NCBI GenBank assembly: GCA_016841945.1
Contig: JAENYC010000027.1
Location: forward strand, 1-51,879
From: Haloplasma contractile
Lineage (GTDB): Bacteria; Bacillota_I; Bacilli_A; Haloplasmatales; Haloplasmataceae
Length of the DNA: 51,879 bases
Direction of reading: 5' to 3'
Below, piece after piece: positions 25,474-49,104 of the stretch (the stretch's first letter is position 1; each line of letters starts with the position of its first letter). The notes beneath the pieces are model-generated. The model saw only the letters and a list, made by a program, of their open reading frames with translations, was not told where the DNA came from and made no database searches. The translations under genes were made by a program, and so were the position numbers.

Positions 25474-25553
25474 GAAATAAAAGTTATACAAAAAATCACC
25501 AATCCGATATAATAGAGTTGTCAAGCTACTATTTAGAAAGGACAGGTGATTTG

Positions 25554-26402: not shown

Positions 26403-26430
26403 TTGACATTACTTTATCATAAACTAATAA
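26403..26430 (+). promoter_or_regulatory. Possible promoter upstream of the RHS remnant
   Basis: TTGACA (26403-26408), a 16-base spacer and TAATAA (26425-26430). The remainder of 26161-26470 is very AT-rich and shows no gene. Confidence 0.4.
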
Positions 26431-26470
26431 CTGTAGATTGTATTATTAATGCAAAGTGCATAAATAACCC

Positions 26471-30038: not shown

Positions 30039-30089
30039 AATGGAGAGGAGAAAGGATATGTCCTTAAGTTAGAAAAGAAAAAAAAGCTT

Positions 30090-30341: not shown

Positions 30342-30492
30342 GCCCCCATATCCAAAAAGATTTTAGAACTTTCACAACAGTTAAGACAGTAAAGAGCTTA
30401 GTTCTTGAATATAAGAAAAAGTTATAATCCTCAATATAAGAGATCAAAGAGGCATAATAATGCTATGACAATTACATTTTAAAAATGAAAAT

Positions 30493-30527
30493 AAGACTAT
30501 GATTTGAACTGAAAATCCTAGTCTTTT
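30493..30527 (+). terminator. Rho-independent terminator
   Basis: AAGACTATGATTT and AAATCCTAGTCTT pair over 12 of 13 positions and are followed by a T-run. It ends the RHS/immunity transcript. The rest of 30342-30490 shows no gene. Confidence 0.75.
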
Positions 30528-30630
30528 TTGTATTACTATTAGGCGATTATTTATAAAAAGTTTAATGTAATAAAAAAACTTCGTTTACGTATAGAAAAAA
30601 ATGTATTTTATTGTCATCTGAACCAGAAAA

Positions 30631-30662
30631 TTGTTAAAAAAAGGGGCTTAATATGGTAAGAT
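30631..30662 (+). promoter_or_regulatory. Possible promoter of the AAA/transglutaminase gene cluster
   Basis: An extended -10 (TGGTAAGAT, 30654-30662) with a weak, over-spaced TTGTTA at 30631-30636. It is the best candidate in the 225 bases between the terminator and the 30755 gene, but far from consensus. Confidence 0.3.
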
Positions 30663-30754
30663 AGATATATAGTTAATTTAAGATTTTACAATTTTTTTAT
30701 AAAAAACAAAATTTTAAATATACAGCACACAATGAACGGAGGATTGGTTTATAT

Positions 30755-31939
30755 ATGAAATCTAAGAAAGAAAAAAAACTTAAAAAAAGAGGATTCTTTA
30801 AAAGATTATTTGGTAAGTCAAAATCAAAAGAGGAACTAAACTTAGATGCTCCATTAGATGATTCAGCAGAGGATCAATCGTTATCAGGAGAAGAACTGAT
30901 TCAAAAAGAGATGAAGAGAGACGAAGAAGAAGCAAATTTACAGAAACCAAAGCGTGTTATTTCTCGAGAACACATTTTTGTAAAAGACGTGGATCCAAAA
31001 AAATATTGCGATGACTTATATTCATATTTACAAGATAATGGATTATCAGTAAATATGAATAACGTACGAGAAATGTTTGCTTCTATGGCTGCAACAAAAT
31101 TGGTAATTGTTAAAAGCAAAGACCCAATACTTTCACAAAGATTTGTGGAGTTGTTTTCTGATTTCATTGGGGCTTATTATACAAAAGACAAAGTAAAACC
31201 GAATCTGGAATCATTTGATGATTTGTATTCAGATAATTATCGTTTTAAAAAATTCATTTTAAAGGCAAATCATGATCCAAACAAAATTAATATCATGTCT
31301 TTAAGAGATGTAAAACTAGACACATTGGAACAGTATTTTGGTAAAGTATTAGAATATGCTTGGAATCCTTTGCTAGCATGTAATATTGAAAATATTATTT
31401 TCAGTAGCGTAAAAGAAATGCCAATAAATACATGGTTTATGGTGATACCAAAAGACAGTAACGATACATTTATGTCAGAAACATTAGGGAATAGTGCCAT
31501 TACACTTGAACTAAACGCCAAAACAATAGAACCAAAAGAAGAAGTATATGAAAATGAGAAAAAATTTTCTTATGAATTTATGACGAACCTGTTATTGGGA
31601 GGATACGAGAAATACTATATCAAAGAAGAGGATTGGAAAAAAGTTGATAAAGTGGAAGAGTATTTAAAAGAGTACAGTACATTTACATTAGATAACCGTA
31701 TGTTCCGCCAACTAGAACGATATACTTCAACTTATCTTATGTTTGGTGGAGACGAATATGAGGCAATGGATAGTGTACTTTACGCAAAATTATTAAGAGT
31801 CATATCAATATTGAAAATCAATATAGATCAAGAAAGCGAAAAAGGTTTGTTTCAACTATTCGAGAAATTATTTGGATTAGAAAACTTAAAAAGATCAAAA
31901 AAGATATTAAAAGAAATACAAGAAATGAATCGATATTAA
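30755..31939 (+). CDS. Degenerate AAA-type protein (pseudo-ATPase paralogue), cluster gene 1
   Basis: 394 aa. It has a basic N-terminus (KKxKK, residues 1-25) and an acidic linker (26-62). By eye the remainder aligns with the McrB-like ATPases encoded next. NNVREMFASMAATKLVIV corresponds to KDIRRFVGGLTVSRIMIL. The Walker A site GMSGTGKTS becomes SKDPILSQ (about 121-128). Walker B ILDEMN becomes LRDVK (about 183-187), and sensor 1 GTANNDDSTF becomes IPKDSNDTF (about 231-239). The lid segment GNRIMGQIINYTP corresponds to DNRMFRQLERYTS (about 313-325). All nucleotide-binding residues are lost, so I infer a non-hydrolysing structural or regulatory partner in a mixed AAA ring. There is no membrane segment. 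It is preceded by GGAGG. Confidence 0.7.
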   Translation: MKSKKEKKLKKRGFFKRLFGKSKSKEELNLDAPLDDSAEDQSLSGEELIQKEMKRDEEEANLQKPKRVISREHIFVKDVDPKKYCDDLYSYLQDNGLSVNMNNVREMFASMAATKLVIVKSKDPILSQRFVELFSDFIGAYYTKDKVKPNLESFDDLYSDNYRFKKFILKANHDPNKINIMSLRDVKLDTLEQYFGKVLEYAWNPLLACNIENIIFSSVKEMPINTWFMVIPKDSNDTFMSETLGNSAITLELNAKTIEPKEEVYENEKKFSYEFMTNLLLGGYEKYYIKEEDWKKVDKVEEYLKEYSTFTLDNRMFRQLERYTSTYLMFGGDEYEAMDSVLYAKLLRVISILKINIDQESEKGLFQLFEKLFGLENLKRSKKILKEIQEMNRY

Positions 31940-31962: not shown

Positions 31963-33333
31963 ATGGAGATCATTCGAAATGTTTTACTAGAACCAAAACT
32001 CCTTCTAAGTTTTAGAGAAGTGATAAACAGTATATGGATCATTCTAACAAGTAACATCGCAATTTTCATTTATATCATTCTTCTATTATTGTTGCTACTC
32101 GTAACAATTATATTGATGATAACAAATGAAATGAGACGCACCGAACAAAGTGATTTAGAACCAACATTAGAACAAGATGTAAACATTACTCTAGAGCAAG
32201 ATGGAGAACCACAACAAACGCAACCAGAATTTGAAAATGAAGAGTCTACAGACGAGTCTCGATTTTTCATGTTACGTCAAATAGACAAAAAAGCAAAATT
32301 ATCTAACAATCATGTGTACGACAACGAGATTACATTTGAAGAACTGTGTAATGAATTCCGCTACTTTGCGGCGGGAACATTAGGATTATATTACGATATC
32401 AAAGACATTAGGCGTTTTGTTGGAGGTCTTACAGTAAGTCGTATTATGATCCTACAAGGGATGTCAGGTACCGGAAAAACATCACTAGCGTATGCATTTG
32501 GAGAGTACCTAAACAATTCATCGGTTGTGATACCAATCCAACCAATGTGGAAAGAACGAACCGATTTGATTGGATATTATAATGAATTCACCAAAAAGTT
32601 CAATGAGACTACACTTCTACAAAAACTCTATGAAGCAAGTCACGATGAACAAATGTATATTACAATATTAGACGAAATGAACATCGCTCGTGTGGAATAC
32701 TATTTCGCTGAGTTTCTATCACTACTAGAAATCCCAGACCACACCAAACGATACCTAGACGTTATCTCAGATGTGTGGGATACCGATCCAGAGTTACTAC
32801 ACGGTGGAAAACTAATCCTACCAAACAACATGTGGTTTATTGGAACGGCAAACAACGATGATTCTACCTTTGCGATATCAGACAAAGTATACGATAGAGC
32901 GATGGTCATGAACCTCGATAAAAAAGCACAATCATTTCTCGCAAAACCAATCAGTGGGCGAAAAGTAACGGCTGCTAAGTTTGAAGAATTAATCGCAAGA
33001 TCGAGAAAAAAATACGCGCTCTCAAATCGTAACTTAAGAAGATTAAAAGAACTAGACAAATACATGATCAAACAATTCCATATCTCATTTGGTAACCGTA
33101 TCATGGGACAGATTATCAATTATACTCCAGTCATTGTAGCTTGTGGTGGAACCGAGTTACAAGCACTAGATGATATTATGTCAAAGAAAGTACTACGAAA
33201 ACTAGAAACCAAAAACATGGTGTACGTAAAAAGTGAAGCACCGGGATTAATCGCATACATTGAAGAGTTATTTGGCGAAGGCGAAATGGAACAATGTATT
33301 GAATATATCAGAAACATTGAAATTAACGCGTAA
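31963..33333 (+). CDS. Membrane-anchored McrB-like AAA+ ATPase A, cluster gene 2
   Basis: 456 aa. One strong membrane segment (about residues 28-52) and a Glu/Gln-rich linker (53-95) place the AAA module in the cytoplasm. Motifs: Walker A GMSGTGKTS (165-173), Walker B ITILDEMN with Asp236-Glu237, sensor 1 FIGTANN (Asn296/297), and Arg311 in YDRAMVM as candidate arginine finger. The LDEMN-plus-GTAN pattern is that of the McrB/MoxR-like branch of AAA+ proteins. From residue 94 on it is nearly identical to the second ATPase (35185-36597). It lies 23 bases after gene 1 and 47 before the DUF2357-like gene. No restriction nuclease partner is present, so a methyl-DNA restriction role is unlikely. 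Confidence 0.85.
   Translation: MEIIRNVLLEPKLLLSFREVINSIWIILTSNIAIFIYIILLLLLLLVTIILMITNEMRRTEQSDLEPTLEQDVNITLEQDGEPQQTQPEFENEESTDESRFFMLRQIDKKAKLSNNHVYDNEITFEELCNEFRYFAAGTLGLYYDIKDIRRFVGGLTVSRIMILQGMSGTGKTSLAYAFGEYLNNSSVVIPIQPMWKERTDLIGYYNEFTKKFNETTLLQKLYEASHDEQMYITILDEMNIARVEYYFAEFLSLLEIPDHTKRYLDVISDVWDTDPELLHGGKLILPNNMWFIGTANNDDSTFAISDKVYDRAMVMNLDKKAQSFLAKPISGRKVTAAKFEELIARSRKKYALSNRNLRRLKELDKYMIKQFHISFGNRIMGQIINYTPVIVACGGTELQALDDIMSKKVLRKLETKNMVYVKSEAPGLIAYIEELFGEGEMEQCIEYIRNIEINA
32242..33333 (+). repeat. 1.09-kb direct repeat, copy 1 (AAA module)
   Basis: Colinear without gaps with 35506-36597 (offset 3264). About eight differences fall in the first 140 bases and only a couple in the remaining about 950. 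The flanking N-terminal coding regions are unrelated. Confidence 0.9.
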
Positions 33334-33380: not shown

Positions 33381-35105
33381 ATGAAGTTAATGGAGTTATA
33401 TTTTCAGGCTTTTAGAGCGTTAAGAAAACATACTAAGGATGACGAAGATAGTAAAAAACTACGTAATGCAATTATATATTCGAATCATGAGAACGAAGTT
33501 TTTACTACAATCAAATACGATTGTAAAATCGATGTTGAATGGGTTGAAAACATCGAAGAAGGATTAAAGTTTGTCGAAAACGCAATTAACGAAGACAGAC
33601 AATTCATTAGAACCGAAGGAGAAGTCGTTCCAATTGAAAAAGTGAAGCGTATATCTAAATCATCCATCGAACACTTATCAAGACACAGTAATTTCATTAC
33701 TCGACTTCCAAAAGACAATACCGCAGACATTATTCCTGAAAAATTATATATCGTTGAAAAACTGAGTGATCACTTAGTGTATGAAAACAAATTTTTGTAC
33801 TTACTTTTATGTTATGTAAAAGACTTTATCGAAATCCGTTTAAACAAAATCAAAGACAAAACCACCACCTATCAATCACAAATGAGTTTTGATAAAAACA
33901 TTGAAGAAACCAGTCATAACATTAAATATAAACTAGAATACTCTGATATTTACAAGAACGATCCATACTTAATTGAACAGTTTAGCGAAATACCTCTAGT
34001 AAATAGAGTAGAGACTAGTTACGCAATTGCAGTTGCGTTACTGAATACACCGTTGATGAAGGCTTGTGCCAAAGCACCTTTAATCAAACCACCTATTACC
34101 AAAACGAATGTACTTCGTATGAATCAAAACTTTAAAGCATCGCTAAAATTATACGATTACATTACCTCATACAATCAAGAAGGTTATGAAATCATTGAAC
34201 GAAAAAACACGATGCAACCATTCACATCTGAAATGGATGATGAAATTGCTGAGACAGTTGAGTTAACATCAGTAATTGGATATATCACTGGTAACGAACT
34301 TCGAGAAACGTTTGAAAACAAAATGCTACAAAAGGAAAAGCAAAAACAAGAGGCGGAAGACAAGAAAAAAGTAGAAGAAATCAAACGACTCAAAAAACGT
34401 ATTGTTGAGATGAATGAAGATCCAACGGAATACATTTTAATGTTAGAGAAACGAAACGCTCAGTTGGAAAGAACAAGTCTCGAGCTTATTAAGGAAAAAG
34501 AAGTAAACAGTGAGTTAAGCATCAAAATCAATGAACTAAAAGACCAACAATTTGATTTGGAAAAAATGATTAGTTCCTTAAATAATACCATTTCTGATTA
34601 CAGTGACAAAATTGATGAGATGAATCAAAAATACTTCGACGACATGGTAGAAGCAGAAAACATTCATCAACAAGAAATAGAAAACTTGAAGAAACATTAT
34701 ACCAAAGTAATCAAAGAACTTAATGAAGAACGTGACAAGCAAATGCAAGATTTACAAAGAACGCACGAAAACGAGAAAAAAAATCTGATCGACAAACACG
34801 ATATGAGTGCTTTCATGTCAGATGTAAAAATCACCAAATTAGAACAAGATATCGTAGCCCTTGAATCATCACTAAATCAGCTTGAAACCGAAGTAAAACG
34901 ATTGGAAGAAGAAAAGAACTACACTAAAGCGCAGTATTTGGCTTTAAGAGCACAACAAGGATTACTAACCGAAGAAGACGATTTTTCTTCAAAAGAAGAA
35001 TTTAAACAAATGGAACTTGAAAGGAAAGCTTACAAAAAATTGTTTAAAGAGGAATGGAAACGCACTAAAATGCGTATACGTGAAAAAGTAAAAACAGAAT
35101 CATGA
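33381..35105 (+). CDS. DUF2357-like protein with long coiled coil, cluster gene 3
   Basis: 574 aa, no membrane segment. Residues about 80-155 match the core of DUF2357, the usual partner of McrB-like ATPases: VPIEKVKRISKSSIEHLSRH, then IIPEKLYIVEKL and HLVYENKFLYLLL. Standard DUF2357 proteins continue into a PD-(D/E)XK nuclease. Here residues about 310-535 are instead a charged Glu/Lys-rich coiled coil, and I see no nuclease motif. I infer an adaptor that links the AAA ring to another structure. It sits between the two near-identical ATPase genes, with AAAGGATG before the ATG, and ends in TGA. Confidence 0.7.
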   Translation: MKLMELYFQAFRALRKHTKDDEDSKKLRNAIIYSNHENEVFTTIKYDCKIDVEWVENIEEGLKFVENAINEDRQFIRTEGEVVPIEKVKRISKSSIEHLSRHSNFITRLPKDNTADIIPEKLYIVEKLSDHLVYENKFLYLLLCYVKDFIEIRLNKIKDKTTTYQSQMSFDKNIEETSHNIKYKLEYSDIYKNDPYLIEQFSEIPLVNRVETSYAIAVALLNTPLMKACAKAPLIKPPITKTNVLRMNQNFKASLKLYDYITSYNQEGYEIIERKNTMQPFTSEMDDEIAETVELTSVIGYITGNELRETFENKMLQKEKQKQEAEDKKKVEEIKRLKKRIVEMNEDPTEYILMLEKRNAQLERTSLELIKEKEVNSELSIKINELKDQQFDLEKMISSLNNTISDYSDKIDEMNQKYFDDMVEAENIHQQEIENLKKHYTKVIKELNEERDKQMQDLQRTHENEKKNLIDKHDMSAFMSDVKITKLEQDIVALESSLNQLETEVKRLEEEKNYTKAQYLALRAQQGLLTEEDDFSSKEEFKQMELERKAYKKLFKEEWKRTKMRIREKVKTES

Positions 35106-35184: not shown

Positions 35185-36597
35185 ATGAAAAATTCCTATG
35201 TGAAAAAATTAGTGGTCTTGTTCATTTCAATCTTCATTGTTGGGATGTTATTGATATTGTCATTAATTGGTAAAGAAAGCATTGTGGACCGTTCAATTGT
35301 GATTGGACTAAGTGAGCAAATTTTTGTCCTAATGGCATCTTTAATTGTGTTTGTGGCACTTTTATCAATTACAATAAACATGTATAAGCAACATAAGAAA
35401 TTGATTTCTTTAGATGCTCCCACAATCCCAGTAGAGGATTTAAATGTTTCACATTCAATAGATTTTGTAGAAACGAAACAGACTGAATCATATTTTGAAA
35501 ACGAAGAGTCTACAGACGAGTCTCGATTTTTCATGTTACGTCAAATAGACAAAGAAGCAAAATTGTCTAACTATCATGCGTACGACAATGATATTACATT
35601 TGAAGAACTGTGTAATGAATTCCGCTACTTTGCAGCGGGAACATTAGGATTATATTACGATATCAAAGACATTAGGCGTTTTGTTGGAGGTCTTACAGTA
35701 AGTCGTATTATGATCCTACAAGGGATGTCAGGTACCGGAAAAACATCACTAGCGTATGCATTTGGAGAGTACCTAAACAATTCATCGGTTGTGATACCAA
35801 TCCAACCAATGTGGAAAGAACGAACCGATTTGATTGGATATTATAATGAATTCACCAAAAAGTTCAATGAGACTACACTTCTACAAAAACTCTATGAAGC
35901 AAGTCACGATGAACAAATGTATATTACAATATTAGACGAAATGAACATCGCTCGTGTGGAATACTATTTCGCTGAGTTTCTATCACTACTAGAAATCCCA
36001 GACCACACCAAACGATACCTAGACGTTATCTCAGATGTGTGGGATACCGATCCAGAGTTACTACACGGTGGAAAACTAATCCTACCAAACAACATGTGGT
36101 TTATTGGAACGGCAAACAACGATGATTCTACCTTTGCGATATCAGACAAAGTATACGATAGAGCGATGGTCATGAACCTCGATAAAAAAGCACAATCATT
36201 TCTCGCAAAACCAATCAGTGGGCGAAAAGTAACGGCTGCTAAGTTTGAAGAATTAATCGCAAGATCGAGAAAAAAATACGCGCTCTCAAATCGTAACTTA
36301 AGAAGATTAAAAGAACTAGACAAATACATGATCAAACAATTCCATATCTCATTTGGTAACCGTATCATGGGACAGATTATCAATTATACTCCAGTCATTG
36401 TAGCTTGTGGTGGAACCGAGTTACAAGCACTAGATGATATTATGTCAAAGAAAGTACTACGAAAACTAGAAACCAAAAACATGGTGTACGTAAAAAGTGA
36501 AGCACCGGGATTAATCGCATACATTGAAGAGTTATTTGGCGAAGGCGAAATGGAACAATGTATCGAATATATCAGAAACATTGAAATTAACGCTTAA
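35185..36597 (+). CDS. Membrane-anchored McrB-like AAA+ ATPase B, cluster gene 4
   Basis: 470 aa. Two membrane segments (about 9-28 and 45-65) replace the single one of ATPase A, followed by a different linker. From NEESTDESRF (about 107) onward the two proteins are nearly identical: Walker A 179-187, Walker B Asp250-Glu251, sensor 1 Asn310/311. Because even synonymous sites agree, the AAA modules were copied or gene-converted very recently while the membrane anchors stayed distinct. The two proteins could form mixed rings with different membrane topologies. The gene starts 79 bases after the DUF2357-like gene and ends 20 before the first giant surface protein. Confidence 0.85.
   Translation: MKNSYVKKLVVLFISIFIVGMLLILSLIGKESIVDRSIVIGLSEQIFVLMASLIVFVALLSITINMYKQHKKLISLDAPTIPVEDLNVSHSIDFVETKQTESYFENEESTDESRFFMLRQIDKEAKLSNYHAYDNDITFEELCNEFRYFAAGTLGLYYDIKDIRRFVGGLTVSRIMILQGMSGTGKTSLAYAFGEYLNNSSVVIPIQPMWKERTDLIGYYNEFTKKFNETTLLQKLYEASHDEQMYITILDEMNIARVEYYFAEFLSLLEIPDHTKRYLDVISDVWDTDPELLHGGKLILPNNMWFIGTANNDDSTFAISDKVYDRAMVMNLDKKAQSFLAKPISGRKVTAAKFEELIARSRKKYALSNRNLRRLKELDKYMIKQFHISFGNRIMGQIINYTPVIVACGGTELQALDDIMSKKVLRKLETKNMVYVKSEAPGLIAYIEELFGEGEMEQCIEYIRNIEINA
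35506..36597 (+). repeat. 1.09-kb direct repeat, copy 2 (AAA module)
   Basis: Second copy of the AAA-module DNA at 32242-33333. Confidence 0.9.
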
Positions 36598-36617: not shown

Positions 36618-39600
36618 ATGAACAATAAGGGATTGATTATCAGTAGTGGTATAGCTGTTGTTACCATTCTTTTTGTTGTCGCATATTCACTGTTCAATGT
36701 GTTCGGAGTAACCCAATCAAGAGTCGTTCGAAACGAGCTCACCATTGTAACAGGAAGTTCAGAAAAACTGTATGATGGTACCCCACTGTCGAATGACGAA
36801 TGGTACATTGAAAGTGGAAGTTTGTATGAAGGTGATACGCTTGAAACCATTATGGGAACCTCAATCACAAACCCTTCATCTGTCGACAACGAAATCGGTG
36901 TAACAATTTTAGACAGCGAAGGGAAAAACGTGACCATCAACTATAAAATACACTATAAGTTAGGAACGTTAACGGTTCGTCCAATCGAACTTACTATACG
37001 AACCGAAGGTAGTAGCAAATACTTTGATGGTAGTCCTTTAACACATCAAGTCTGGAGAATGCAATTTGGAGAGTTGTTTGATGGACACCGACTTGAGTAT
37101 GAAATGAACTCGAAAATTACTGCTCCAGGTACGACAGACAACGAAATAGATATTACAATACTTGACAAAAATGATGAAGTTGTAAATCATATTTATGATA
37201 TTACATATCATTTAGGAAGTTTAACGGTATATGGAAGAGATATCACCATTTCTACAGAGACCTATGAAAAAGGATATGACGGAACACCTCTTTTAGGAGG
37301 ACCTGTCATACAAACTGGAGAAATAGCTTTCTCGAATACGATTGTCTTTGGACCAGAACCAAAACTCACTAATCCTGGAACCGTGTCAAACGAAAGAAGT
37401 GTTATCATTTATGATTCAGAGGGAAATGATATTACTGAGTACTATAATATAACCTACGATTTTGGAACGTTAACGGTTCATCCTATTGAATTGATTATTA
37501 GATCCGATAGCGCAACCAAAGTTTATGACGGAACACCTTTGTCAAATGATCAGTGGGATTTGGTACATGGACAAGTCTTAGATGGACATGAATTGGTAGT
37601 AGATGTAAACAACGAAATCACTGAAGTGGGAATCATTGACAATACCATTTTTGCGACTATCCTTGATGAAAGAGGTACCGATGTTAGTTATATTTACAAC
37701 ATCGAGTACATCACTGGTACATTAGAAGTAGTTGGTAGAGATTTAATTATCTCAACTGTTAGTGATAGTAAGTTTTTTGATGGAACTCCTTTAACATCCG
37801 ATGGATATACCATTGAAATGGGACAATTAGCTGATAATCATCGTATCGAATATCACATGGCATCTTCTATCACCAACCCTGGTGAGATAGATAATGAGAT
37901 TACATTAATGATAATAAATGAAAACGATGAAATTGTGACAAATGATTACAACATCGAGTATATGTTAGGTACTTTAACAGTACTTACGAAAGAAATTACA
38001 ATTTCTACAGAAACACTAGACAAACGATATGACGGTACCCCCCTTTTAGGTGGAACCGGAACATTAATATTTGGAGAATTAACCGAAGGCCATACAATTG
38101 TGTATGGACCAGGAAACAGCATTGTTAACCCTGGAATCAAATTAAATGAAATTGAGGCAATCATATACGATTCAGATGGAACCGACGTAACTATGGGGTA
38201 TGACATCACGTATGAATATGGTACCTTAACCATACATGCGATTTCTTTAATTATTAAATCACCAGATGATAGTAAAACATACGATGGAACGCCTTTATCA
38301 AACAATACTTGGGAGTTAATCAACGGAACGTTATTAGAAGGTCATGAGCTAATTGTTGATGTAGACAATTCTATCACTGACGTTGGTTCCATAAAAAATG
38401 TAATGAACCCTTACGTAATTGATGAAACTGGAAATGACTTAAGTGACATGTATGATATTGAACAACTTACAGGAACATTAACCGTACATGGCATTGAAAT
38501 AACCATTACCACAGAAACATTAGAAAAAGGATACGATGGTACCCCTCTTTTAGGTGGCTCTGGAACACTACAATATGGTTCATTGCTAGATGGGCATTAT
38601 ATCGAATACGGACCAGAACAAAGTATTACCAATCCTGGTTCTATTACCAATACCGTAGATGTTAGAGTATTTGACAGTGAAGGAACAGATGTTACCCAAG
38701 GTTATGAAATAACATATGAATATGGTACGCTAACCATTACTCCTGTTTCTATCGTTGTCAAATCACCAGATGATACCAAAATATATGATGGAACGCCATT
38801 ATCAAATAACACATGGGAATTTTTTAGTGGAACATTATTAGACAACCATACTTTAGTAGTTGAAGTGGACAATGAAATCACCAATTCAGGTAGCGTTCCA
38901 AATACCATGGATGCTTATGTTATCGATGAATTAGGTAACAATGTTAGTGATATATATGATATCGAACATATTACAGGTAGACTAACTGTAACAAAAAGAG
39001 ATATAACAATTCAAACAGATGATTACGATAAACCATATGATGGAACACCGTTATTGGGTGGAACTGGAACGATTGTTGGAGGAACACTTGTTGAGAATCA
39101 TACAGTATCATATGGACCAGAACAAAGTATCACGTATCCAGATACTATTGAGAATGAAATCGGTGTTACGTTTTACGATGGAGATGGGAATGATGTTACA
39201 ACAAACTACAATATCATTGATGATTTTGGAACATTAACCATCCATCCAATTACACTGATTTTAACTTCAGATGATGACAGTAAAACCTATGATGGAACAC
39301 CATTAACCAACAATAACTGGGATTTATTAAGTGGTACATTATTGCCAGGTCATACTTTAGTAGTAGATGTAAGCAATCAAATCACGAACCCAGGAACCAT
39401 AGAAAACACAATCGTTGCCTACGTTGTGGATGAATCGGACCATGACGTAAGTGATAGTTATGATCTTGAGTACGTGCCTGGAGATTTAACCATTGATCCA
39501 ATCAATATAACAATTTCAACAGCAACCTCAGAAAAAGCATACGACGGGACACCTCTATTAGGAGGAAATGGAACATTGACAGCAGGTTCGTTAGTCCCTA

Positions 39601-41648
39601 CACATAGCATTTCATATGGACCAGAACAAAGTATTACCAATCCAGGTGTTGTGGAAAACTCAATTGATATCACCATATTTGATGGAAGCGGAAATGATGT
39701 GACAATTGGGTACAATATTACCGAGAATTTTGGAACCTTAACAATAGATGAAATTACGATAATTTTGAAATCACCTGATGCAACCAAGATATACGATGGT
39801 ACGCCATTATCAGCGAATACTTATGAAGTATTAAGTGGATCTGTTTTAGCAGGACATACATTATATGTTGATGTAGACAATGAAATCACCGATGTGGGTT
39901 CAATCGATAATACAATGTTTGCCTACGTTCTTGATGGTTCTGGAAATAGTGTAACGCATTACTATAGTTTCTTATACAATGTGGGGACATTAACCGTATT
40001 ATCAAGTGCTTATTCATCAAATGAAATAGCAACAGAAAGTTTTGATATACCAGAACAAGATGTCTTTAGAGTGTATGCTGGTGTATCAGGACTAGTATAT
40101 TTTAAAGATAGATCACATGGTGATTATAATTACACAGGTTGGACACCTGGTGTCGTGCAAAACACCAATATCACCAACAATCCACTCAGTTTCCCGTCTA
40201 CCGCTTTAGCGGAAACGGGACGAACATCTACACAGATTAGTGTGGAGTATTTAAGAGATCAAGTTCCATATTTAAGCCCATATTATACTGTAGATACAAT
40301 TAGTGGATTAAATGATATTCATATCACAGGAGATACTTCAATTACGAACAATATCAATATAATTATGTACAATTATGATGAAGCAGATGGTATTACCATT
40401 CAAGATGAGCTACTATCTAGTGAAGAACAAACTTACCGTAATTATGTATATGCAAACTATTTAGATATTCCAGCAGACACATTATCAGAAATGCTTCTTA
40501 TAGCGCAAGCAAACGGCTTATCAGCTGAAAGCCCAACAATTATAGCGGATGTACAAAATTATATCAAAAATGCAGCAACCTATAATCTTGATTTTGCTCC
40601 AATACCAGAAGGAGAAGACGTTGCTGTTTACTTCTTAAACGTATCAAAAGAGGGAATATGTCAACACTATGCAACTGCAGCTACTTTAATGTACCGTTCC
40701 CTTGGAGTTCCCGCGAGATACGTCACAGGATTCGTTGGAAATCTAGACGCTAATCAGTGGACAACTGTTGATTCGAAACAAGCCCATGCATGGGTTGAAG
40801 TATACATTGATGGTTTAGGTTGGGTACCTGTTGAAGTAACAGGATCAGGTTCTGCATCAGAACCAATCGAACCAATCGAAATCACAGTAATCCCGAATAC
40901 TGTTAGAGAATTATACGAAGAAGGAAAAACAATTACAGCTTCTTCATTAACCATTTTAGGATATACTGATTTCTTCAATGATGGGTATACCTATCAAGCA
41001 ACATACGGAGGATCATTGTCAACAATTGGTACAGCAAGTAGTACCGTCTCTTCTATGACAATTTACGATTCAGAAGGGAAAGATGTTACCAACCAATTTG
41101 CCATTACATTCATGGAAGGTGTCCTTCAACTATACGGTTACGAAATAGAACTTGTAACAAGCAACGACACCAAAATATATGATGGTACACCTTTAACCAA
41201 TACGACTTACTTAATTAATGGTAGTTTGGCAACAGGTCACCACGTTGAATCGGTAATCTTTACAGGTTCACAAACCAATTTAGGTGTATCAAAAAATACC
41301 GCTACGGTCATTATTCATGATGAAAATGGTAACAATGTTACATCACTATATAGCGTAGATTATACATATGGTGATTTAACCGTAACTCCAAGATCCATCA
41401 CAATAGAATCAGCTGATGCTACAAAAGTATTTGATGGAACACCATTAACCAGCGACTCTTATTTAGTTACTTCAGGATCATTGGCTTCTACAGATACCAT
41501 TGAAATCGATATTACTGGTAGCCAAACAATGATTGGAAAGAGTATGAACACTATCAGTTCGATTACAATATTAAATAATGGTAACAATGTAACAAGTAAC
41601 TACATTATTGTCACTGTTGAAGGAGAACTAATCGTTACGCCATATTAA
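36618..41648 (+). CDS. Giant surface protein with MBG/YDG-type repeats and transglutaminase-like domain (1676 aa), cluster gene 5
   Basis: One N-terminal membrane segment (about residues 6-28, signal-anchor type) holds a long extracellular chain. Thirteen repeats of about 84-86 residues follow, each with a K-x-Y-D-G-T-P-L core and an LGTLTV-type end. From repeat 6 to 13 two kinds alternate strictly: YDGTPLLGG and YDGTPLSNN/TNN. A transglutaminase-like domain comes next (about 1130-1412), with Cys1348 in GICQHYA and His1390 in AHAWVEVY. The third position, usually Asp, is Glu1406 in WVPVEVT. Three more repeats end the protein, with no sorting signal or C-terminal anchor. Such domains form or cut amide bonds, and I infer cross-linking of surface fibres or attachment to outside proteins. 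The ATG at 36618 follows AAAAGGATG. Confidence 0.85.
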   Translation: MNNKGLIISSGIAVVTILFVVAYSLFNVFGVTQSRVVRNELTIVTGSSEKLYDGTPLSNDEWYIESGSLYEGDTLETIMGTSITNPSSVDNEIGVTILDSEGKNVTINYKIHYKLGTLTVRPIELTIRTEGSSKYFDGSPLTHQVWRMQFGELFDGHRLEYEMNSKITAPGTTDNEIDITILDKNDEVVNHIYDITYHLGSLTVYGRDITISTETYEKGYDGTPLLGGPVIQTGEIAFSNTIVFGPEPKLTNPGTVSNERSVIIYDSEGNDITEYYNITYDFGTLTVHPIELIIRSDSATKVYDGTPLSNDQWDLVHGQVLDGHELVVDVNNEITEVGIIDNTIFATILDERGTDVSYIYNIEYITGTLEVVGRDLIISTVSDSKFFDGTPLTSDGYTIEMGQLADNHRIEYHMASSITNPGEIDNEITLMIINENDEIVTNDYNIEYMLGTLTVLTKEITISTETLDKRYDGTPLLGGTGTLIFGELTEGHTIVYGPGNSIVNPGIKLNEIEAIIYDSDGTDVTMGYDITYEYGTLTIHAISLIIKSPDDSKTYDGTPLSNNTWELINGTLLEGHELIVDVDNSITDVGSIKNVMNPYVIDETGNDLSDMYDIEQLTGTLTVHGIEITITTETLEKGYDGTPLLGGSGTLQYGSLLDGHYIEYGPEQSITNPGSITNTVDVRVFDSEGTDVTQGYEITYEYGTLTITPVSIVVKSPDDTKIYDGTPLSNNTWEFFSGTLLDNHTLVVEVDNEITNSGSVPNTMDAYVIDELGNNVSDIYDIEHITGRLTVTKRDITIQTDDYDKPYDGTPLLGGTGTIVGGTLVENHTVSYGPEQSITYPDTIENEIGVTFYDGDGNDVTTNYNIIDDFGTLTIHPITLILTSDDDSKTYDGTPLTNNNWDLLSGTLLPGHTLVVDVSNQITNPGTIENTIVAYVVDESDHDVSDSYDLEYVPGDLTIDPINITISTATSEKAYDGTPLLGGNGTLTAGSLVPTHSISYGPEQSITNPGVVENSIDITIFDGSGNDVTIGYNITENFGTLTIDEITIILKSPDATKIYDGTPLSANTYEVLSGSVLAGHTLYVDVDNEITDVGSIDNTMFAYVLDGSGNSVTHYYSFLYNVGTLTVLSSAYSSNEIATESFDIPEQDVFRVYAGVSGLVYFKDRSHGDYNYTGWTPGVVQNTNITNNPLSFPSTALAETGRTSTQISVEYLRDQVPYLSPYYTVDTISGLNDIHITGDTSITNNINIIMYNYDEADGITIQDELLSSEEQTYRNYVYANYLDIPADTLSEMLLIAQANGLSAESPTIIADVQNYIKNAATYNLDFAPIPEGEDVAVYFLNVSKEGICQHYATAATLMYRSLGVPARYVTGFVGNLDANQWTTVDSKQAHAWVEVYIDGLGWVPVEVTGSGSASEPIEPIEITVIPNTVRELYEEGKTITASSLTILGYTDFFNDGYTYQATYGGSLSTIGTASSTVSSMTIYDSEGKDVTNQFAITFMEGVLQLYGYEIELVTSNDTKIYDGTPLTNTTYLINGSLATGHHVESVIFTGSQTNLGVSKNTATVIIHDENGNNVTSLYSVDYTYGDLTVTPRSITIESADATKVFDGTPLTSDSYLVTSGSLASTDTIEIDITGSQTMIGKSMNTISSITILNNGNNVTSNYIIVTVEGELIVTPY

Positions 41649-41667: not shown

Positions 41668-41704
41668 AAGGGGGGAGCAATCCATACGGGATTGTGAGTT
41701 CTTA
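41668..41704 (+). promoter_or_regulatory. Ribosome binding site separated from the start by a hairpin
   Basis: AAGGGGGGAG (41668-41677) is the only good site before ATG 41704, but 26 bases separate them. A 6-bp stem CAATCC/GGATTG (41678-41694, loop ATACG) fills the gap and would bring the two closer when folded. No other in-frame start fits: the TTG at 41692 is followed by TGA. Confidence 0.5.
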
Positions 41705-44700
41705 TGTTATATGAAAGATACGAACGAAGAGTTAGAAGAAACGTTTTAATCCTAAGAAAGATATACAAGTATCGATTCTTATTAATAACACTAGCATCGA
41801 TTGTTTTCCTTTCTTTGTCTGGATTTGCAGTTACAAAAGGGATGATATACGAGGTATCTGTCCCTAGTTCATATGTTTACAGCGAGGATGTAAATTTTTC
41901 ATCAAAAGCGATGTTTTCACCGGTAACATATCGTTACCGTCAAGTTGGAGAAACAACATGGGTTAACGAAAAGCCTACGACTGTTGGAGAATACGAAGTT
42001 GAAATAAAAACAAAACAGTTACTTGGTGGAGAAAACACCAAAGTTGTTGGCTTTACAATTGAACCCAAAAATGTAACGCTAGACATCCAATCATCCAGTG
42101 TTGTTTTTGGTGAGAATCCGATTATTGAAGCCGAACTATCTGAAGGAGATTACATTGATGATGTGCAGTTTTCTTATGAGAATTTATCTCAGACAGAAAG
42201 TGTTGCAAAGGTAGAATCGATTACAATAAAAGATAGTCTTGGAAATGACGTAACAGAATCGTATGACTTTAAGAACACTTCATTTACGATTCAATATATA
42301 CCAAGACCAATTACTGTTTCATTACTCGATATAACCGATATCTACAAAGGTGTTGTGCTAACTTCAAATGATTTTGAAATCACAGAAGGATCTCTCGTAG
42401 AAGGAAATATTATTGAAATCACATCTAACGGTAGCCAACTTGAAGTTGGTAGTAGTTTAAATACCATCTTAACCGCTACTATATTGGATAACGGTGTTGA
42501 TGTAACATCAAATTATGATATTACCTTTGAAGATGGTTCATTAGAGGTTACCACTAGACCTATTACCATTCAAACAAGTAGCGATACAACAACATACGAT
42601 GGAACACCTTTTTCGAATCTTAATTTCGAAATCATTGAAGGATCCATCGTTGCCACTCATCGTATTAATGTAATTAGTAACACAAGTATTACAAATGTAG
42701 GTACAACTGATAATATCTTATCAGTAGAAATCCTTGACGAAAGCGGACAAAATGTTACAAGTAACTATGACATTACCTATGTATATGGCGAATTAGAAGT
42801 CACCATAAGACAAATTACAATTGAATCAACAAGTGATACTAAAGTTTACGATGGTACTCCGTTATTCAACTCAGACTATACAATTACGGAAGGCTCTTTA
42901 GGAGATGGACACACAATAAAGGTAACTAGCAATGTTGATATAACTACTGTAGGTACACTTGATAACGAATTAACTGTACAAATCCTTGATTCAAATGATA
43001 ATGATGTTTCAAGTAATTATGAACTGACCTATGTATATGGACAACTAGATGTAATCAAAAGACCAATCACCATCCAAACGAATAGTGAAACCAAAGTATA
43101 TGATGGTGACTTATTATCTAATAAAAATTATGTTGTTTCAGAAGGTACGTTAGTAACAGGTGATGTTGTCAATATAACAGATTACACAGACATCACAAAT
43201 GTCGGTGAAGTTAATAATGTTTTAATTGCCGAAATCCTTGATTCTAATTCAAGTAGTGTTACAGATAATTATGACATAACGTATGAATATGGATCGTTAG
43301 AAGTAACCGAAAGACCAATTACAATTCAAACAGATTCCGATAGCAAAATATATGATGGAACAGCCTTATTCAACGAAAATTATACCATCACATTAGGAAC
43401 ATTGGTTACAGGAGATACGATTAATGTCACAGACAATACAGACATCACAAATGTCGGCATTGTGGATAATGTATTAAATTTTAAGATTTTAGATTCTGAC
43501 CTGATTGATGTAACAAGTAACTATAATATTACATATGAGCATGGTTCACTGGAGATAACGGTAAGACAAATTATAATCAAACCAGAAGATGCGAGCAAAG
43601 TATATGATGGAACGGAACTTACTTCAGATGTTACTGAGATAATTTCTGGTGCTTTAGTGAATGGACATACGATAACGATAACCACATCAGGAAACCAAAC
43701 GAATGTCGGAACAAGTACGAATTCTATTTTAACGGTCATCATTGATGATGGAGGAACTGACGTAACCTCAAACTATAATATTATATATGAGGATGGTTCA
43801 CTGGAGGTAACAGCAAGACCAATTACAATCAAACCTGAAGATGTCACCAAAGTATATGATGGAACAGAACTAACCTCAGATGTTACAGAGGTAACTTCTG
43901 GTACTTTAGTGAATGGACATACGATAACGATAACCACATCAGGAAGCCAAACGAATGTCGGAACAAGTACGAATTCTATTTTAACAGTAACCATCGATGA
44001 TGGAGGAACTGACGTAACTTCAAACTATGATATTACTTTCATAGATGGATCGTTAGAGGTAACACCGCGACCAATCTCTGTTCAAACAAATTCTGATACC
44101 AAAGTATATGATGGAACAGCCTTATTCAATGAAAATTATACCATCACATTAGGAACATTGGTTACAGGAGATAACATAAATGTTATAGACAATACAGACA
44201 TCACAAATGTCGGTGTAGTTGATAATGTATTAACTCTCGAGATTTTAGATTCTTTACTTAACGATGTAACCTCAAACTACAACATTACTTTTGATAATGG
44301 AACATTAGAAGTGACACCGCGACCAATCTCTGTTCAAACAAATTCTGATACCAAAGTATATGATGGAACAGCCTTATTCAATGAAAATTATACCATCACA
44401 TTAGGAACATTGGTTACAGGAGATAACATAAATGTTATAGACAATACAGACATCACAAATGTCGGTGTAGTTGATAATGTATTAACTATTGAAATTTTAG
44501 ATTCTGAGCTGATTGATGTAACAAGTAACTATAATATTACATATGAGCATGGTTCACTGGAGATAACGGTAAGACAAATTATAATCAAACCAGAAGATGC
44601 GAGCAAAGTATATGATGGAACGGAACTTACTTCAGATGTTACTGAGATAATTTCTGGTGCTTTAGTGAATGGACATACGATAACGATAACCACATCAGGA

Positions 44701-47700
44701 AACCAAACGAATGTCGGAACAAGTACGAACTCTATTTTAACAGTAACCATCAACGATGGAGGAACTGACGTAACCTCAAACTATGATATTACATATGTAG
44801 ATGGTTCATTAGAGGTAACAGCAAGACCAATTACAATCAAACCAGAAGATGCCACCAAAGTATATGATGGAACAGAACTAACCTCAGATGTTACTGAGAT
44901 AACTTCTGGTGCTTTAGTGAATGGACATACGATAGATATTACTACTTCAGGAAGTCAGCTAAATGTCGGAACAAGTACGAATTCCATCTTAACAGTAACG
45001 ATTAACGATGGAGGAACTGATGTAACCTCAAACTATGATATTACATATGTAGATGGTTCATTAGAGGTAACAGCAAGACCAATTACAATTAAACCAGAAG
45101 ATGCGACCAAAGTGTATGATGGAACTGAACTTACTTCAGATATCGCAGAGGTAACTTCTGGTGCTTTAGTGAATGGACATACGATAACGATAACCACATC
45201 AGGAAACCAAACGAATGTTGGAACAAGCACGAATTCCATCTTAACAGTAACGATTAATGATGGAGGAACTGACGTAACCTCAAACTATGATATTACATAT
45301 GTAGATGGTTCGCTGGAGGTAACACCAAGACCAATTACAATCAAACCAGAAGATGCGACTAAAGTATATGATGGAACAGAACTAACCTCAGATGTTACAG
45401 AGGTAACTTCCGGTACTTTAGTGAATGGACATACGATAACGATAACCACATCAGGAAGCCAAACGAATGTCGGAACAAGTACGAATTCTATTTTAACAGT
45501 AACCATCGATGATGGAGGAACTGACGTAACTTCAAACTATGATATTACTTTCATAGATGGATCGTTAGAGGTAACACCGCGACCAATCTCTGTTCAAACA
45601 AATTCTGAAACCAAAGTATATGATGGAACAGCCTTATTCAACGAAAATTACATCATCACATTAGGGACATTGGTTACAGGAGATACGATTGATGTCACAG
45701 ACAATACAGACATCACAAATGTCGGTGTAGTTGATAATGTATTAACTCTCGAGATTTTAGATTCTTTACTTAACGATGTAACCTCAAACTACAACATTAC
45801 ATTTGTTAATGGAACATTAGAAGTAACACCGCGATCAATCTCTGTTCAAACAAATTCTGAAACCAAAGTATATGATGGAACAGCCTTATTCAACGAAAAT
45901 TACATCATCACATTAGGGACATTGGTTACAGGAGATACGATTGATGTCACAGACAATACAGACATCACAAATGTCGGTGTAGTTGATAATGTATTAACTC
46001 TTGAGATTTTAAATTCTGAACTGATTGATGTCACAAGAAACTATAATATTACATTTGATTATGGAACATTAGAAGTAACACCAAGACCAATTTCTATTCA
46101 AACAAATTCTGATAGCAAAGTATATGATGGAACGGCTTTATTCAACGAAAATTATACCATCACATCAGGAACATTGGTTGGTGGAGATACGATTAATGTC
46201 ATAGACAATACAGACATAATAAATGTCGGTGTTGTTGATAATGTATTAACTCTCGAGATTTTAGATTCTGAACTGATTGATGTCACAAGTAACTATAATA
46301 TTACATATGAGAATGGTTCACTGGAGGTAACGGTAAGACCAATTACAATCAAACCAGAAGATGCGACCAAAGTATATGATGGAACGGAACTTATTTCAGA
46401 TGTCGCAGAGGTAATTTCTGGTGCTTTAGTGAATGGACATACGATAGATATTACTACTTCAGGAAGTCAGCTAAATGTCGGAACAAGTACAAACAACATT
46501 CTTACAGCAATAGTCTTTGATGGAACAAATGACGTAACGTCAAACTATGATATTACATATGAGGATGGTTCATTGGAAGTAACTCCAAGACCAATCACCA
46601 TTCAAACAGATAATGATTCAAAAATTTACGATGGAACACCTTTATCAAACGCAAATTACACTATCACTTCTGGGACATTGGTTGCTGGAGATGTGATCAA
46701 TGTTGTTACGAAAACAGAACTAACCATCGTAGATGTTGTAGACAATGTATTATCAGTAGAAATCGAAACAGCAACAGCTACTGATGTAACTAGTAATTAT
46801 GTAATAACCTACGAATATGGATTCTTAGAAGTAACGCCTAGAACAATTGTTATTTCAACTCCAGGAGCCACCAAAGTATACGATGGAACACCATTAACAA
46901 ATGATAACTGGGAGTTAACTGAAGGTAGTCTCGTACTTGATCATGAGTTGACTGTAACCGTAACGGGTACGATTACTGAAGTTGGCCTAACAAGAAATGA
47001 CTTCACTTATGAAATAAAAGATGCTAGTTCAAATGACGTTTCTTTATACTATATCGTTAAAGAAAACACTGGTATTTTAGAAGTAGAAAGAGAAAAAACA
47101 CTTCTTGTAATACAATCAAATAGTGATTCGAAATTGTATGATGGAACACCACTAACAAATAGCGAATGGATATTGTTTGAAGGGGAATTATTGCCAAATC
47201 ATACTTTAGATGTTGTCCTAACAGGTACCATTACTAATGTAGGTACCACTGACAATACATTTACCTATGTTGTCTTGGACGAAAATGATGTTGATGTTAC
47301 AACAGAATTCTATGATGTCCAAGTATCGTATGGTGAATTAACGATTCTAGAAAACAATGACAATGGAGCAAACAACGAAGACTCAACTAACATTAGTAAC
47401 GAGGGAAGTCTTGATGATGGTCCACCTCAAACAGTCTTAGAAATATACTCTGAAATAGACGATATCATATATTTAAGAGACAAATCATATGGTGATTACA
47501 ACAAACAAGGATGGAATGTACCAATAGTATACGTATCACCATATAACGTAACACCATTATTGTTCCCATCAATCGCAATTAACAGTACGTTAAATACCTA
47601 TGAACTTCAAGTTAGAGCGCTTCAAACAGGATTATCTTATTACTTGCCATATTATTCATCAAATGGATTCTACAACAATTATAACGATGTATATGTGAAT

Positions 47701-49104
47701 CATACGTATGGTAGTACTTATTCTATGGATTATACGCCAATTACCAACGTAGATTACAATACTCTATCAATCAGTGATCCTACAAATCAAGCGTATGAAA
47801 CAGAATATCAAACATTTGTTTATCAAAATTACTTGCAATTACCAAGGGAAACAAGAGAAGCATTATTACGAATAGCTTCTGAAAATGGATTGGATCCATC
47901 TAGTCCGACAATTATCGAAGATGTTCAAAACTATATTAAAAGTGCGGGAGTTTACAACAAAGCATATGACCCTATCCCAAATAATGTAGATGTGGCATTA
48001 TACTTCCTTGAAGAATCACGTGAAGGTATTTGTCAACACTTTGCAACTGCTGGTGTTGTAATGTACCGTTCAATGGGTATACCAGCGCGATATGCAACAG
48101 GCTTTGTTGCACAATCAAGCGCAGATAATTGGGTAGGAATAACCACAAATCAAGCCCACGCTTGGGTTGAAATCTATATTGATGGATTTGGATGGGTACC
48201 TATTGAAGTGACTGCTCCAGATCTTGGAGATGGTTCGGATGATGGATTCGGATCAGAACCTAGTAATGATACAGGAAGCACTAGTGGAGATGAGACATCA
48301 AGTAATCTAATCCAACTCGACATCATCTCTGGAAATGATTCAAAAGTATACGATGGAACACCACTAACGAACTCATTCTATTATTCTATTGGTTCTTTAC
48401 AAACAGGACATACTTTAACTGTGAATGTGACTGGTACCATTACCTTAGTGGGAGAAACTCAAAATACATTTACCTACACGATTGAAGATCAAAATGGTAA
48501 TGATGTTAGTGATCAATACAACGTAAATTCAATATATGGATCACTCGTCGTCGCTCCAAGCAATGATTTAGAAATTATTGAGTTCCAAGTATACGATATA
48601 ACAACCGTATACAACGGACAAGTAATAAAACATAGTGACACAGATTACTGGATACCTTCTCAAAACCTTCCGGCAAATTACACCGTTATATTAGACATTG
48701 TTGGAAGTATTACAGATGTGGGTAAAAAAATTACCTATATTAATCCAGCATCCGTTGTGATACTTGATGAAAATCAAATCGATGTAACGGGTAATTATAA
48801 TATTGTCACATATGAAGGATCTATTACCGTAAAAGAACGTAGTATAAGTGTCACTTCATTCTCAGCTAGAAAAGATTATGATGGACAACCACTAACCTCG
48901 GATGTCTACTATATTTCACAGGGTTCACTTGCCGAAGGAGATGAAATCACAGTGAACATTACCGGTTCTATAACTGATCCAGGATTTGCCGCAAACACCA
49001 TTGAATCAATCACCATTGTGAATGCCAATGGAGACGACGTTACTAGTAATTATGACATTGATGAAATCGAAGGTACACTAATCGTGGATGCAGTTGGAAG
49101 CTAA
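41704..49104 (+). CDS. Giant surface protein with MBG/YDG-type repeats and transglutaminase-like domain (2466 aa), cluster gene 6
   Basis: An Arg-rich cytoplasmic tail (residues 1-22), one membrane segment (about 24-44) and a short Ig-like domain are followed by about 20 repeats of 84 residues with K-V-Y-D-G-T cores. Repeats 5 to 17 fall into two kinds, YDGTALFNENY (A) and YDGTELTSDV (B), in the order ABBAABBBBAAAB, and are nearly identical in DNA. The transglutaminase-like domain (about 1910-2175) has Cys2110 (GICQHFA), His2152 (AHAWVEIY) and Glu2168 (WVPIEVT). It opens with IIYLRDKSYGDYNKQGW, as in the paralogue. A Ser/Gly/Asp-rich linker and three repeats end the chain without a sorting signal. 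It is a length-expanded paralogue of the 36618 product and probably works with it at the cell surface. Confidence 0.85.
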   Translation: MLYERYERRVRRNVLILRKIYKYRFLLITLASIVFLSLSGFAVTKGMIYEVSVPSSYVYSEDVNFSSKAMFSPVTYRYRQVGETTWVNEKPTTVGEYEVEIKTKQLLGGENTKVVGFTIEPKNVTLDIQSSSVVFGENPIIEAELSEGDYIDDVQFSYENLSQTESVAKVESITIKDSLGNDVTESYDFKNTSFTIQYIPRPITVSLLDITDIYKGVVLTSNDFEITEGSLVEGNIIEITSNGSQLEVGSSLNTILTATILDNGVDVTSNYDITFEDGSLEVTTRPITIQTSSDTTTYDGTPFSNLNFEIIEGSIVATHRINVISNTSITNVGTTDNILSVEILDESGQNVTSNYDITYVYGELEVTIRQITIESTSDTKVYDGTPLFNSDYTITEGSLGDGHTIKVTSNVDITTVGTLDNELTVQILDSNDNDVSSNYELTYVYGQLDVIKRPITIQTNSETKVYDGDLLSNKNYVVSEGTLVTGDVVNITDYTDITNVGEVNNVLIAEILDSNSSSVTDNYDITYEYGSLEVTERPITIQTDSDSKIYDGTALFNENYTITLGTLVTGDTINVTDNTDITNVGIVDNVLNFKILDSDLIDVTSNYNITYEHGSLEITVRQIIIKPEDASKVYDGTELTSDVTEIISGALVNGHTITITTSGNQTNVGTSTNSILTVIIDDGGTDVTSNYNIIYEDGSLEVTARPITIKPEDVTKVYDGTELTSDVTEVTSGTLVNGHTITITTSGSQTNVGTSTNSILTVTIDDGGTDVTSNYDITFIDGSLEVTPRPISVQTNSDTKVYDGTALFNENYTITLGTLVTGDNINVIDNTDITNVGVVDNVLTLEILDSLLNDVTSNYNITFDNGTLEVTPRPISVQTNSDTKVYDGTALFNENYTITLGTLVTGDNINVIDNTDITNVGVVDNVLTIEILDSELIDVTSNYNITYEHGSLEITVRQIIIKPEDASKVYDGTELTSDVTEIISGALVNGHTITITTSGNQTNVGTSTNSILTVTINDGGTDVTSNYDITYVDGSLEVTARPITIKPEDATKVYDGTELTSDVTEITSGALVNGHTIDITTSGSQLNVGTSTNSILTVTINDGGTDVTSNYDITYVDGSLEVTARPITIKPEDATKVYDGTELTSDIAEVTSGALVNGHTITITTSGNQTNVGTSTNSILTVTINDGGTDVTSNYDITYVDGSLEVTPRPITIKPEDATKVYDGTELTSDVTEVTSGTLVNGHTITITTSGSQTNVGTSTNSILTVTIDDGGTDVTSNYDITFIDGSLEVTPRPISVQTNSETKVYDGTALFNENYIITLGTLVTGDTIDVTDNTDITNVGVVDNVLTLEILDSLLNDVTSNYNITFVNGTLEVTPRSISVQTNSETKVYDGTALFNENYIITLGTLVTGDTIDVTDNTDITNVGVVDNVLTLEILNSELIDVTRNYNITFDYGTLEVTPRPISIQTNSDSKVYDGTALFNENYTITSGTLVGGDTINVIDNTDIINVGVVDNVLTLEILDSELIDVTSNYNITYENGSLEVTVRPITIKPEDATKVYDGTELISDVAEVISGALVNGHTIDITTSGSQLNVGTSTNNILTAIVFDGTNDVTSNYDITYEDGSLEVTPRPITIQTDNDSKIYDGTPLSNANYTITSGTLVAGDVINVVTKTELTIVDVVDNVLSVEIETATATDVTSNYVITYEYGFLEVTPRTIVISTPGATKVYDGTPLTNDNWELTEGSLVLDHELTVTVTGTITEVGLTRNDFTYEIKDASSNDVSLYYIVKENTGILEVEREKTLLVIQSNSDSKLYDGTPLTNSEWILFEGELLPNHTLDVVLTGTITNVGTTDNTFTYVVLDENDVDVTTEFYDVQVSYGELTILENNDNGANNEDSTNISNEGSLDDGPPQTVLEIYSEIDDIIYLRDKSYGDYNKQGWNVPIVYVSPYNVTPLLFPSIAINSTLNTYELQVRALQTGLSYYLPYYSSNGFYNNYNDVYVNHTYGSTYSMDYTPITNVDYNTLSISDPTNQAYETEYQTFVYQNYLQLPRETREALLRIASENGLDPSSPTIIEDVQNYIKSAGVYNKAYDPIPNNVDVALYFLEESREGICQHFATAGVVMYRSMGIPARYATGFVAQSSADNWVGITTNQAHAWVEIYIDGFGWVPIEVTAPDLGDGSDDGFGSEPSNDTGSTSGDETSSNLIQLDIISGNDSKVYDGTPLTNSFYYSIGSLQTGHTLTVNVTGTITLVGETQNTFTYTIEDQNGNDVSDQYNVNSIYGSLVVAPSNDLEIIEFQVYDITTVYNGQVIKHSDTDYWIPSQNLPANYTVILDIVGSITDVGKKITYINPASVVILDENQIDVTGNYNIVTYEGSITVKERSISVTSFSARKDYDGQPLTSDVYYISQGSLAEGDEITVNITGSITDPGFAANTIESITIVNANGDDVTSNYDIDEIEGTLIVDAVGS
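43312..46610 (+). repeat. Tandem 252-bp repeats inside the 2466-aa gene
   Basis: Thirteen in-frame units of exactly 252 bp (for example TATATGAT at 43601 and again at 43853) with long stretches of identical DNA. Units 8 and 9 share about 170 identical bases. Larger blocks are also duplicated: the junction reading EITVRQIIIKPEDASKVYDG occurs at both about 43550 and 44570. This array should expand and contract by recombination and is prone to assembly collapse. Confidence 0.9.

Follow-up and report, generated by a model that had tools for sequence, protein, structure and literature searches.

A diverged paralogue of McrB-like ATPases, lacking their catalytic residues, heads a conserved operon in Haloplasma contractile and its relatives

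The nearest described relatives of the operon analysed here are the McrBC-derived CoCoPALM systems, which were named in eLife in 2024 (PMC11090510) and are only briefly described in the literature that uses the name. In McrBC, DUF2357 is the part of McrC by which McrB is activated (PMC11090510), and the solved structure carries a triphosphate analogue at three of six interfaces, with sequential hydrolysis (PMC6624300). Degenerate proteins are also on record, such as PcdA of Staphylococcus aureus, a McrB-family cell-division protein thought still to bind nucleotide (PMC10602043), and catalytically dead AAA+ components of some predicted conflict systems (PMC7159879). The PFNA cluster of bifidobacteria, in turn, is a MoxR AAA+/DUF58/transglutaminase operon (PMC8430577).

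The window, by which we mean the whole 51,879-nucleotide stretch of Haloplasma contractile DNA under analysis, holds an operon in which a pseudo-ATPase (PSE), ATPase A, a coiled-coil protein (CC), ATPase B and two surface proteins (TG1, TG2) follow one another with intergenic gaps of 20-79 bp. The order PSE, A, CC, B, closed by one or two large repeat proteins, is conserved among relatives, with flanks that differ between lineages.

30755..31939, + strand: PSE, 394 aa, ATG start; lysine-rich N-terminus (residues 1-26), disordered linker, dead McrB-like AAA+ core (about 78-258) and lid (about 270-392)
31963..33333, + strand: ATPase A, 456 aa; one N-terminal transmembrane (TM) segment, intact McrB-like AAA_5 module with NxD-D sensor-1 motif
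33381..35105, + strand: CC, 574 aa; N-terminal DUF2357-like (McrC-N-like) region and long coiled coils
35185..36597, + strand: ATPase B, 470 aa; two N-terminal TM segments, AAA module 99% identical to that of ATPase A
36618..41648, + strand: TG1, 1676 aa surface protein; N-terminal signal anchor, YDGTPL-type repeats, transglutaminase core
41704..49104, + strand: TG2, 2466 aa surface protein; short N-terminal tail, TM segment, MBG/YDG-type repeats, transglutaminase core

The first gene and its relatives

The original prediction, made from the DNA letters alone, held that PSE aligns along the AAA module of the two ATPases, and both of our comparisons bear this out. PSE and ATPase A matched in BLASTP at E 5e-14 over 344 residues with 19% identity (a single comparison), and a profile of PSE orthologues matched the ATPase profile in hhalign with probability 100 and E 6e-54 over 339 columns, a value that places the match far beyond chance; together these results rule out a chance alignment. 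As judged from these alignments, PSE is related to the ATPase beside it as a diverged paralogue, and its membership of the AAA+ superfamily is near certain. Four sites in the window copy carry the main changes and the main retained feature.

31115..31138, + strand: lost Walker A site, SKDPILSQ, residues 121-128, placed by profile alignment
31301..31315, + strand: lost Walker B site, LRDVK, residues 183-187, with acids D-E replaced by R-D, placed by profile alignment
31493..31495, + strand: lost arginine finger site, S247
31694..31699, + strand: retained lid N314-R315; among orthologues N in 40/41 and R or K in 40/41

At the aligned positions, the ATPase Walker A GMSGTGKT has become SKDPILSQ, Walker B LDEMN has become LRDVK, sensor-1 N297 is a lysine and arginine finger R312 is a serine, such that all four features of an active ATPase are gone, and the lid signatures GNR...Q and CGG..E..AL are kept as DNR...Q and FGG..E..AM. 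The predicted loss of Walker A, Walker B and sensor 1 with retention of the lid pattern therefore stands, and the arginine finger is an addition to that list which strengthens the case for a dead ATPase; on its residues, PSE is without everything needed to hydrolyse ATP or GTP. Because a Pfam scan gave no match at E<=1 and an NCBIfam scan gave a single meaningless one far under its cut-off, annotation as 'hypothetical' is likely, as had been anticipated.

Structure prediction agreed with the homology. An AlphaFold2 model, built from an alignment of 38 pseudo-ATPase orthologues from which active ATPases were excluded, had a mean pLDDT of 82.9 and a pTM of 0.79, the low-confidence part being chiefly its first 70 residues, and showed a predicted AAA+ core fold with a helical lid and without the nucleotide-site residues. 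Its best PDB matches were AAA+ proteins, namely RavA (Z 14.3, rmsd 4.7, 267 residues), McrB (Z 14.2, rmsd 3.4, 169 residues) and dynein AAA domains (Z ~13), and Foldseek E-values were modest (best 7.7e-5), as is expected of a degenerate domain. The lysine-rich character of the N-terminus is conserved in the congener, and a scan for amphipathic helix moments gave the highest values outside residues 1-26 and no support for a membrane-binding N-terminal helix.

With ATPase A as query, 84,980 species genomes yielded 63 loci, and more were taken from relatives' genomes, which revealed PSE-headed operons in Mycoplasmatota and Bacillota, among dozens of wall-less and gut bacteria. Catalytic loss proved family-wide, both in cis and in trans: the Walker A lysine, the Walker B DE pair and the arginine finger are each present in 0/41 PSE proteins vs 74/74 ATPases, and the sensor-1 asparagine in 4/41 vs 74/74, so that 37 of the 41 PSE orthologues keep none of the four and 4 keep one, whereas the lid asparagine is present in 40/41 PSE proteins and 74/74 ATPases. 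Regional conservation runs in reverse in the two groups, with the lid being the best conserved part of PSE (pairwise identity 0.30, other regions including the poorly conserved pseudo-nucleotide core 0.20-0.27) and the lid and pre-core helix the least conserved parts of the ATPases (0.53-0.57, remaining core 0.61-0.91).

In a maximum-likelihood tree of 92 AAA modules, all 43 PSE rows fell on one side of a single branch with support 100/100, which was also recovered in 200/200 bootstrap trees; the pseudo-ATPases are one monophyletic group with a single origin, inside which long branches make relationships uncertain. When window and congener (G001) were compared, PSE gave dN 0.038 and dS 0.197 (dN/dS ~0.19) and the ATPase A gene dN 0.038 and dS 0.193 (dN/dS ~0.20), the same ratio. 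Given this equality and the single origin, PSE is an old gene maintained under purifying selection and not a stray decayed one. PSE is nevertheless not indispensable to the machine, because some operons keep A, CC, B and surface proteins without it (L064, L071, L075 and probably L061/L062/L066); the neighbouring genes at these loci were checked as candidate diverged PSE copies and are not.

Many relatives have a much longer first gene of ~1100 aa, in which a GH3 domain and a TM hairpin precede the pseudo-AAA module. The first 650 residues match GH3_C at E 4e-27, an Fn3-like domain at 1e-10, beta-glucosidases in the PDB at up to 4e-35 and, in hhalign, GH3 at 5e-48; the catalytic domain at the N-terminus has degenerated, and 0/26 long forms checked had the SDW catalytic nucleophile motif at its expected place. 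Two TM segments at ~650-715 lead into the pseudo-AAA module and no hydrophobic segment lies N-terminal of the GH3 domain, and by simple topology reasoning both the GH3 and pseudo-AAA parts would be cytosolic. This union of degenerate GH3, TM hairpin and dead AAA+ in one protein is seen as the operon's first gene among loci L023-L084. As a genome of the same family (G006) carries a long form of 1011 aa, and the window and congener copies consist of the AAA part and lysine-rich N-terminus without GH3 or TM hairpin, the window PSE is probably a shortened derivative. A six-frame search of 24001-31000 found no GH3 remnant upstream of it, and elsewhere in the genome a single GH3-like gene turned up, an 819-aa frame on a different contig. 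A role deduced from the long relatives may thus be invalid for the window copy.

The neighbouring genes

The two active ATPases, whose closest solved relative by sequence is McrB (E 2e-4), are nearly the same protein on different anchors. The window A and B modules differ by 5 synonymous and 4 non-synonymous codons over 351, and module identity is >=98.4% in 24/25 operons with PSE (the exception being Anaeroplasma bactoclasticum at 62%, whose PSE is among the most diverged), vs 95, 82, 60 and 60% in the four PSE-less loci with upstream sequence available; across these few PSE-free loci, an association between A/B sameness and PSE presence is suggestive. The N-terminal anchors of A and B are only ~30% identical (TM counts are 1 in A, 2 in B and 2 in most PSE), the tree usually pairs A with the B of its own operon, and at one locus (L030) they differ by 53 synonymous and 0 non-synonymous codons. 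Near-identical modules on diverged anchors, together with the 53/0 pattern, point to concerted evolution through repeated gene conversion and strong selection for sameness. An assembly artefact is unlikely, since the congener, where both genes sit on one contig of 3.2 Mb, shows 9 synonymous and 3 non-synonymous codon differences between them, and L030 shows the 53/0 pattern; 26/63 contigs break off within A or B, which is what a genuine repeat would produce.

The partner encoded between them belongs to a family in which DUF2357 was detected in 14/38 members (best 6e-7), and in CC proteins of sibling systems at up to 1.9e-12; the window CC scores under threshold but is homologous to the family. 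Its structure model has only helices after residue 283 and no convincing PDB match (Foldseek best E 0.36; VIA best Z 7.3, on the coiled coil), which leaves sequence as the ground for the DUF2357 assignment. A nuclease, including the PD-(D/E)xK type of McrBC, was found neither among the 25 most frequent Pfam matches of 38 CC proteins nor in 9 that were scanned singly. Downstream, the two surface proteins of these operons often include a transglutaminase part, and some relatives keep the repeats with no transglutaminase domain detected in the first of their two surface proteins. Promoter and terminator scans performed no better than shuffles.

Beyond the operon, a Desulfoferrodoxin-like small protein is encoded at 49125-49493, and genes resembling it are found upstream of the ATPases in L061, L062 and L066, probably by coincidence. 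On the other side, several adjacent ORFs at 26471-30341 have YD-repeat-like (Rhs-like) sequence apparently broken into frames. Within that range, a short ORF at 29628-30038 matches a toxin-like Pfam domain weakly and under the cut-off, and after it comes a small ORF at 30090-30341; an IS200-like transposase (Y1_Tnp, 7e-39) lies close by at 25425-26009.

A candidate mechanism and its rivals

In the explanation that we judge best, and hold with a little better than even confidence, PSE is a dead but retained paralogue that works as a subunit, itself unable to hydrolyse nucleotide, of a McrB-like machine anchored in the membrane and serving surface proteins. ATPases A and B, whose modules are kept alike, would on that account share and co-assemble into one membrane-anchored ring, which the DUF2357 and coiled-coil parts of CC could activate by analogy with the action of the McrC N-terminal domain on McrB. 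PSE would join or dock on this ring through its AAA and lid surfaces and, having no nucleotide pocket and supplying no arginine finger, would give the ring a fixed asymmetry. It may also tie the ring to the membrane, via the TM hairpin in most relatives and perhaps via the lysine-rich N-terminus in the window copy, with the cytosolic dead GH3 of the relatives probably acting as a binding or scaffold module. Were PSE part of the ring, two of its six interfaces would fall silent, a loss that, extending from the McrBC structure (PMC6624300), McrB-type rings may tolerate. Gene neighbourhood suggests the two giant surface-repeat/transglutaminase proteins that end the operon as likely clients. The idea in the original prediction that PSE sits in a mixed ring and sets polarity or docking is plausible.

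A possible though doubtful alternative is that PSE stays outside the ring as a membrane docking adaptor, with its dead AAA module serving as a binding surface for the lids of the ATPases or for CC and recruiting the ring without taking a subunit position. The conservation pattern (lid at 0.30 vs 0.20-0.27 elsewhere, the core being poorly conserved, the reverse of the ATPases) and the TM hairpin and extra domain of most relatives would suit such an adaptor, as would the expectation that a subunit without an arginine finger would poison the neighbouring site in a ring; yet a simple adaptor would have no need of both a full AAA+ core and a lid, which are retained and predicted with high confidence, and the dead AAA+ subunits known from clamp loaders, ORC and dynein usually occupy ring or arc positions. 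That PSE is instead a functionless pseudogene on its way to loss seems very improbable. It does evolve faster than the ATPases (identity 0.20-0.30 vs 0.53-0.91 by region), the window copy is shorter than its relatives and some operons are without it, but the reading frame is open, the dN/dS of ~0.19 equals that of the active ATPases and largely refutes decay, and a gene of single origin has been retained across two phyla at the same operon position with its lid asparagine in 40/41.

Two further readings would give PSE a different function. It is unlikely that PSE acts as a regulator or sensor whose altered pocket can still take up a nucleotide or some other small ligand: the fold is kept and the degenerate PcdA is thought still to bind nucleotide (PMC10602043), but the Walker A lysine and Walker B DE are each found in 0/41 and the sensor-1 asparagine in only 4/41, and PcdA keeps the Walker B aspartate where the window PSE has an arginine. 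More improbable still is that the operon is a defence system related to McrBC or CoCoNuT, with PSE sensing phage inhibitors or serving as a decoy against them; McrB-like ATPases, a CC family with a DUF2357-like region and the dead AAA+ components of some predicted conflict systems (PMC7159879) speak for it, and against it stand the absence of any nuclease domain found in the operon, the membrane anchors of the ATPases, the surface proteins at the operon's end and the siting of related single-ATPase systems with SipW-like signal peptidases and TasA-like proteins.

Taking the non-hydrolysing subunit further, and tentatively enough that we give the full picture less than even credence, the operon could encode a hetero-AAA+ machine undescribed in the open-access literature searched: a McrB-like ring, anchored in the membrane, of two co-converted live subunits and one obligately dead one, the latter in most lineages a double pseudoenzyme (dead GH3 and dead AAA+), that deploys or organises giant repeat/transglutaminase surface proteins instead of cutting nucleic acid. 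McrB-like motors are known mainly from restriction, and this derivative, in which no nuclease was found, seems to have been redirected to surface proteins and occurs in both wall-less and gut bacteria. With a dead subunit of single origin that two phyla have kept, nature provides a test case for the job of non-hydrolysing AAA+ subunits, and the near identity of the A and B modules suggests that interchangeable subunits are required and selected for. The analysis also supplies a name and a predicted fold for a protein that sequence annotation would leave hypothetical.

Comparison with known systems

Set against the brief accounts of CoCoPALM systems, the operon shares a McrB-like NTPase with NxD-type sensor-1 and an N-terminal TM segment (here in both A and B), a McrC homologue with DUF2357, a coiled coil and no nuclease found, and sibling single-ATPase systems that adjoin SipW-like signal peptidases. 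CoCoPALM NTPases are fused to an FtsB-like domain with a TM segment and coiled coil; of this arrangement, the TM segment is seen in both ATPases here. The sensor-1 letters NND(D/E), seen in 74/74 ATPases, and NxDD in sibling systems are consistent with the NxD type but not decisive, as they fit NxxD too. A related module occurs in 101/296 sampled genomes of the class, the pseudo-ATPase form in only a minority of them, and in other families of the class operons of a single ATPase and CC include SipW-like signal peptidases together with proteins whose '..FAWF'-type signal sequences resemble that of TasA, which fits CoCoPALM systems as far as PMC11090510 outlines them. Operons of a single ATPase and DUF2357 with SipW, TasA-like and secreted proteins of >2000 aa (L089-L097) are common in the class. 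The window operon has no signal-peptidase gene, and two archaeal-type signal peptidase I genes lie on other contigs of the genome. It differs from CoCoPALMs, as briefly described, in its duplicated NTPase (A, B), its dead third copy and its YDG/MBG-repeat transglutaminase outputs, and the short open-access accounts of CoCoPALMs mention neither a dead subunit nor a GH3 fusion; the three-paralogue operon may have derived from a CoCoPALM-like ancestor.

McrBC, whose GTPase McrB is the closest solved relative of the ATPases by sequence, shares with the operon the AAA+ fold (predicted for PSE, Z 14.2) and a partner with a DUF2357-like region, and the operon differs in having no DNA-reader domain and no nuclease and in having membrane anchors, a dead paralogue and surface-protein neighbours. 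MoxR/DUF58 operons likewise encode an AAA+ ATPase with a transglutaminase-domain protein, but MoxR and DUF58 are different families, and to our knowledge those operons have no McrC-like partner and no dead paralogue. PcdA resembles PSE in its McrB-family AAA+ domain, its degraded Walker motifs and its new function away from restriction, and differs in having EVE domains, no linked McrC-type partner and a retained Mg-binding aspartate, whereas PSE sits among live paralogues and has lost more.
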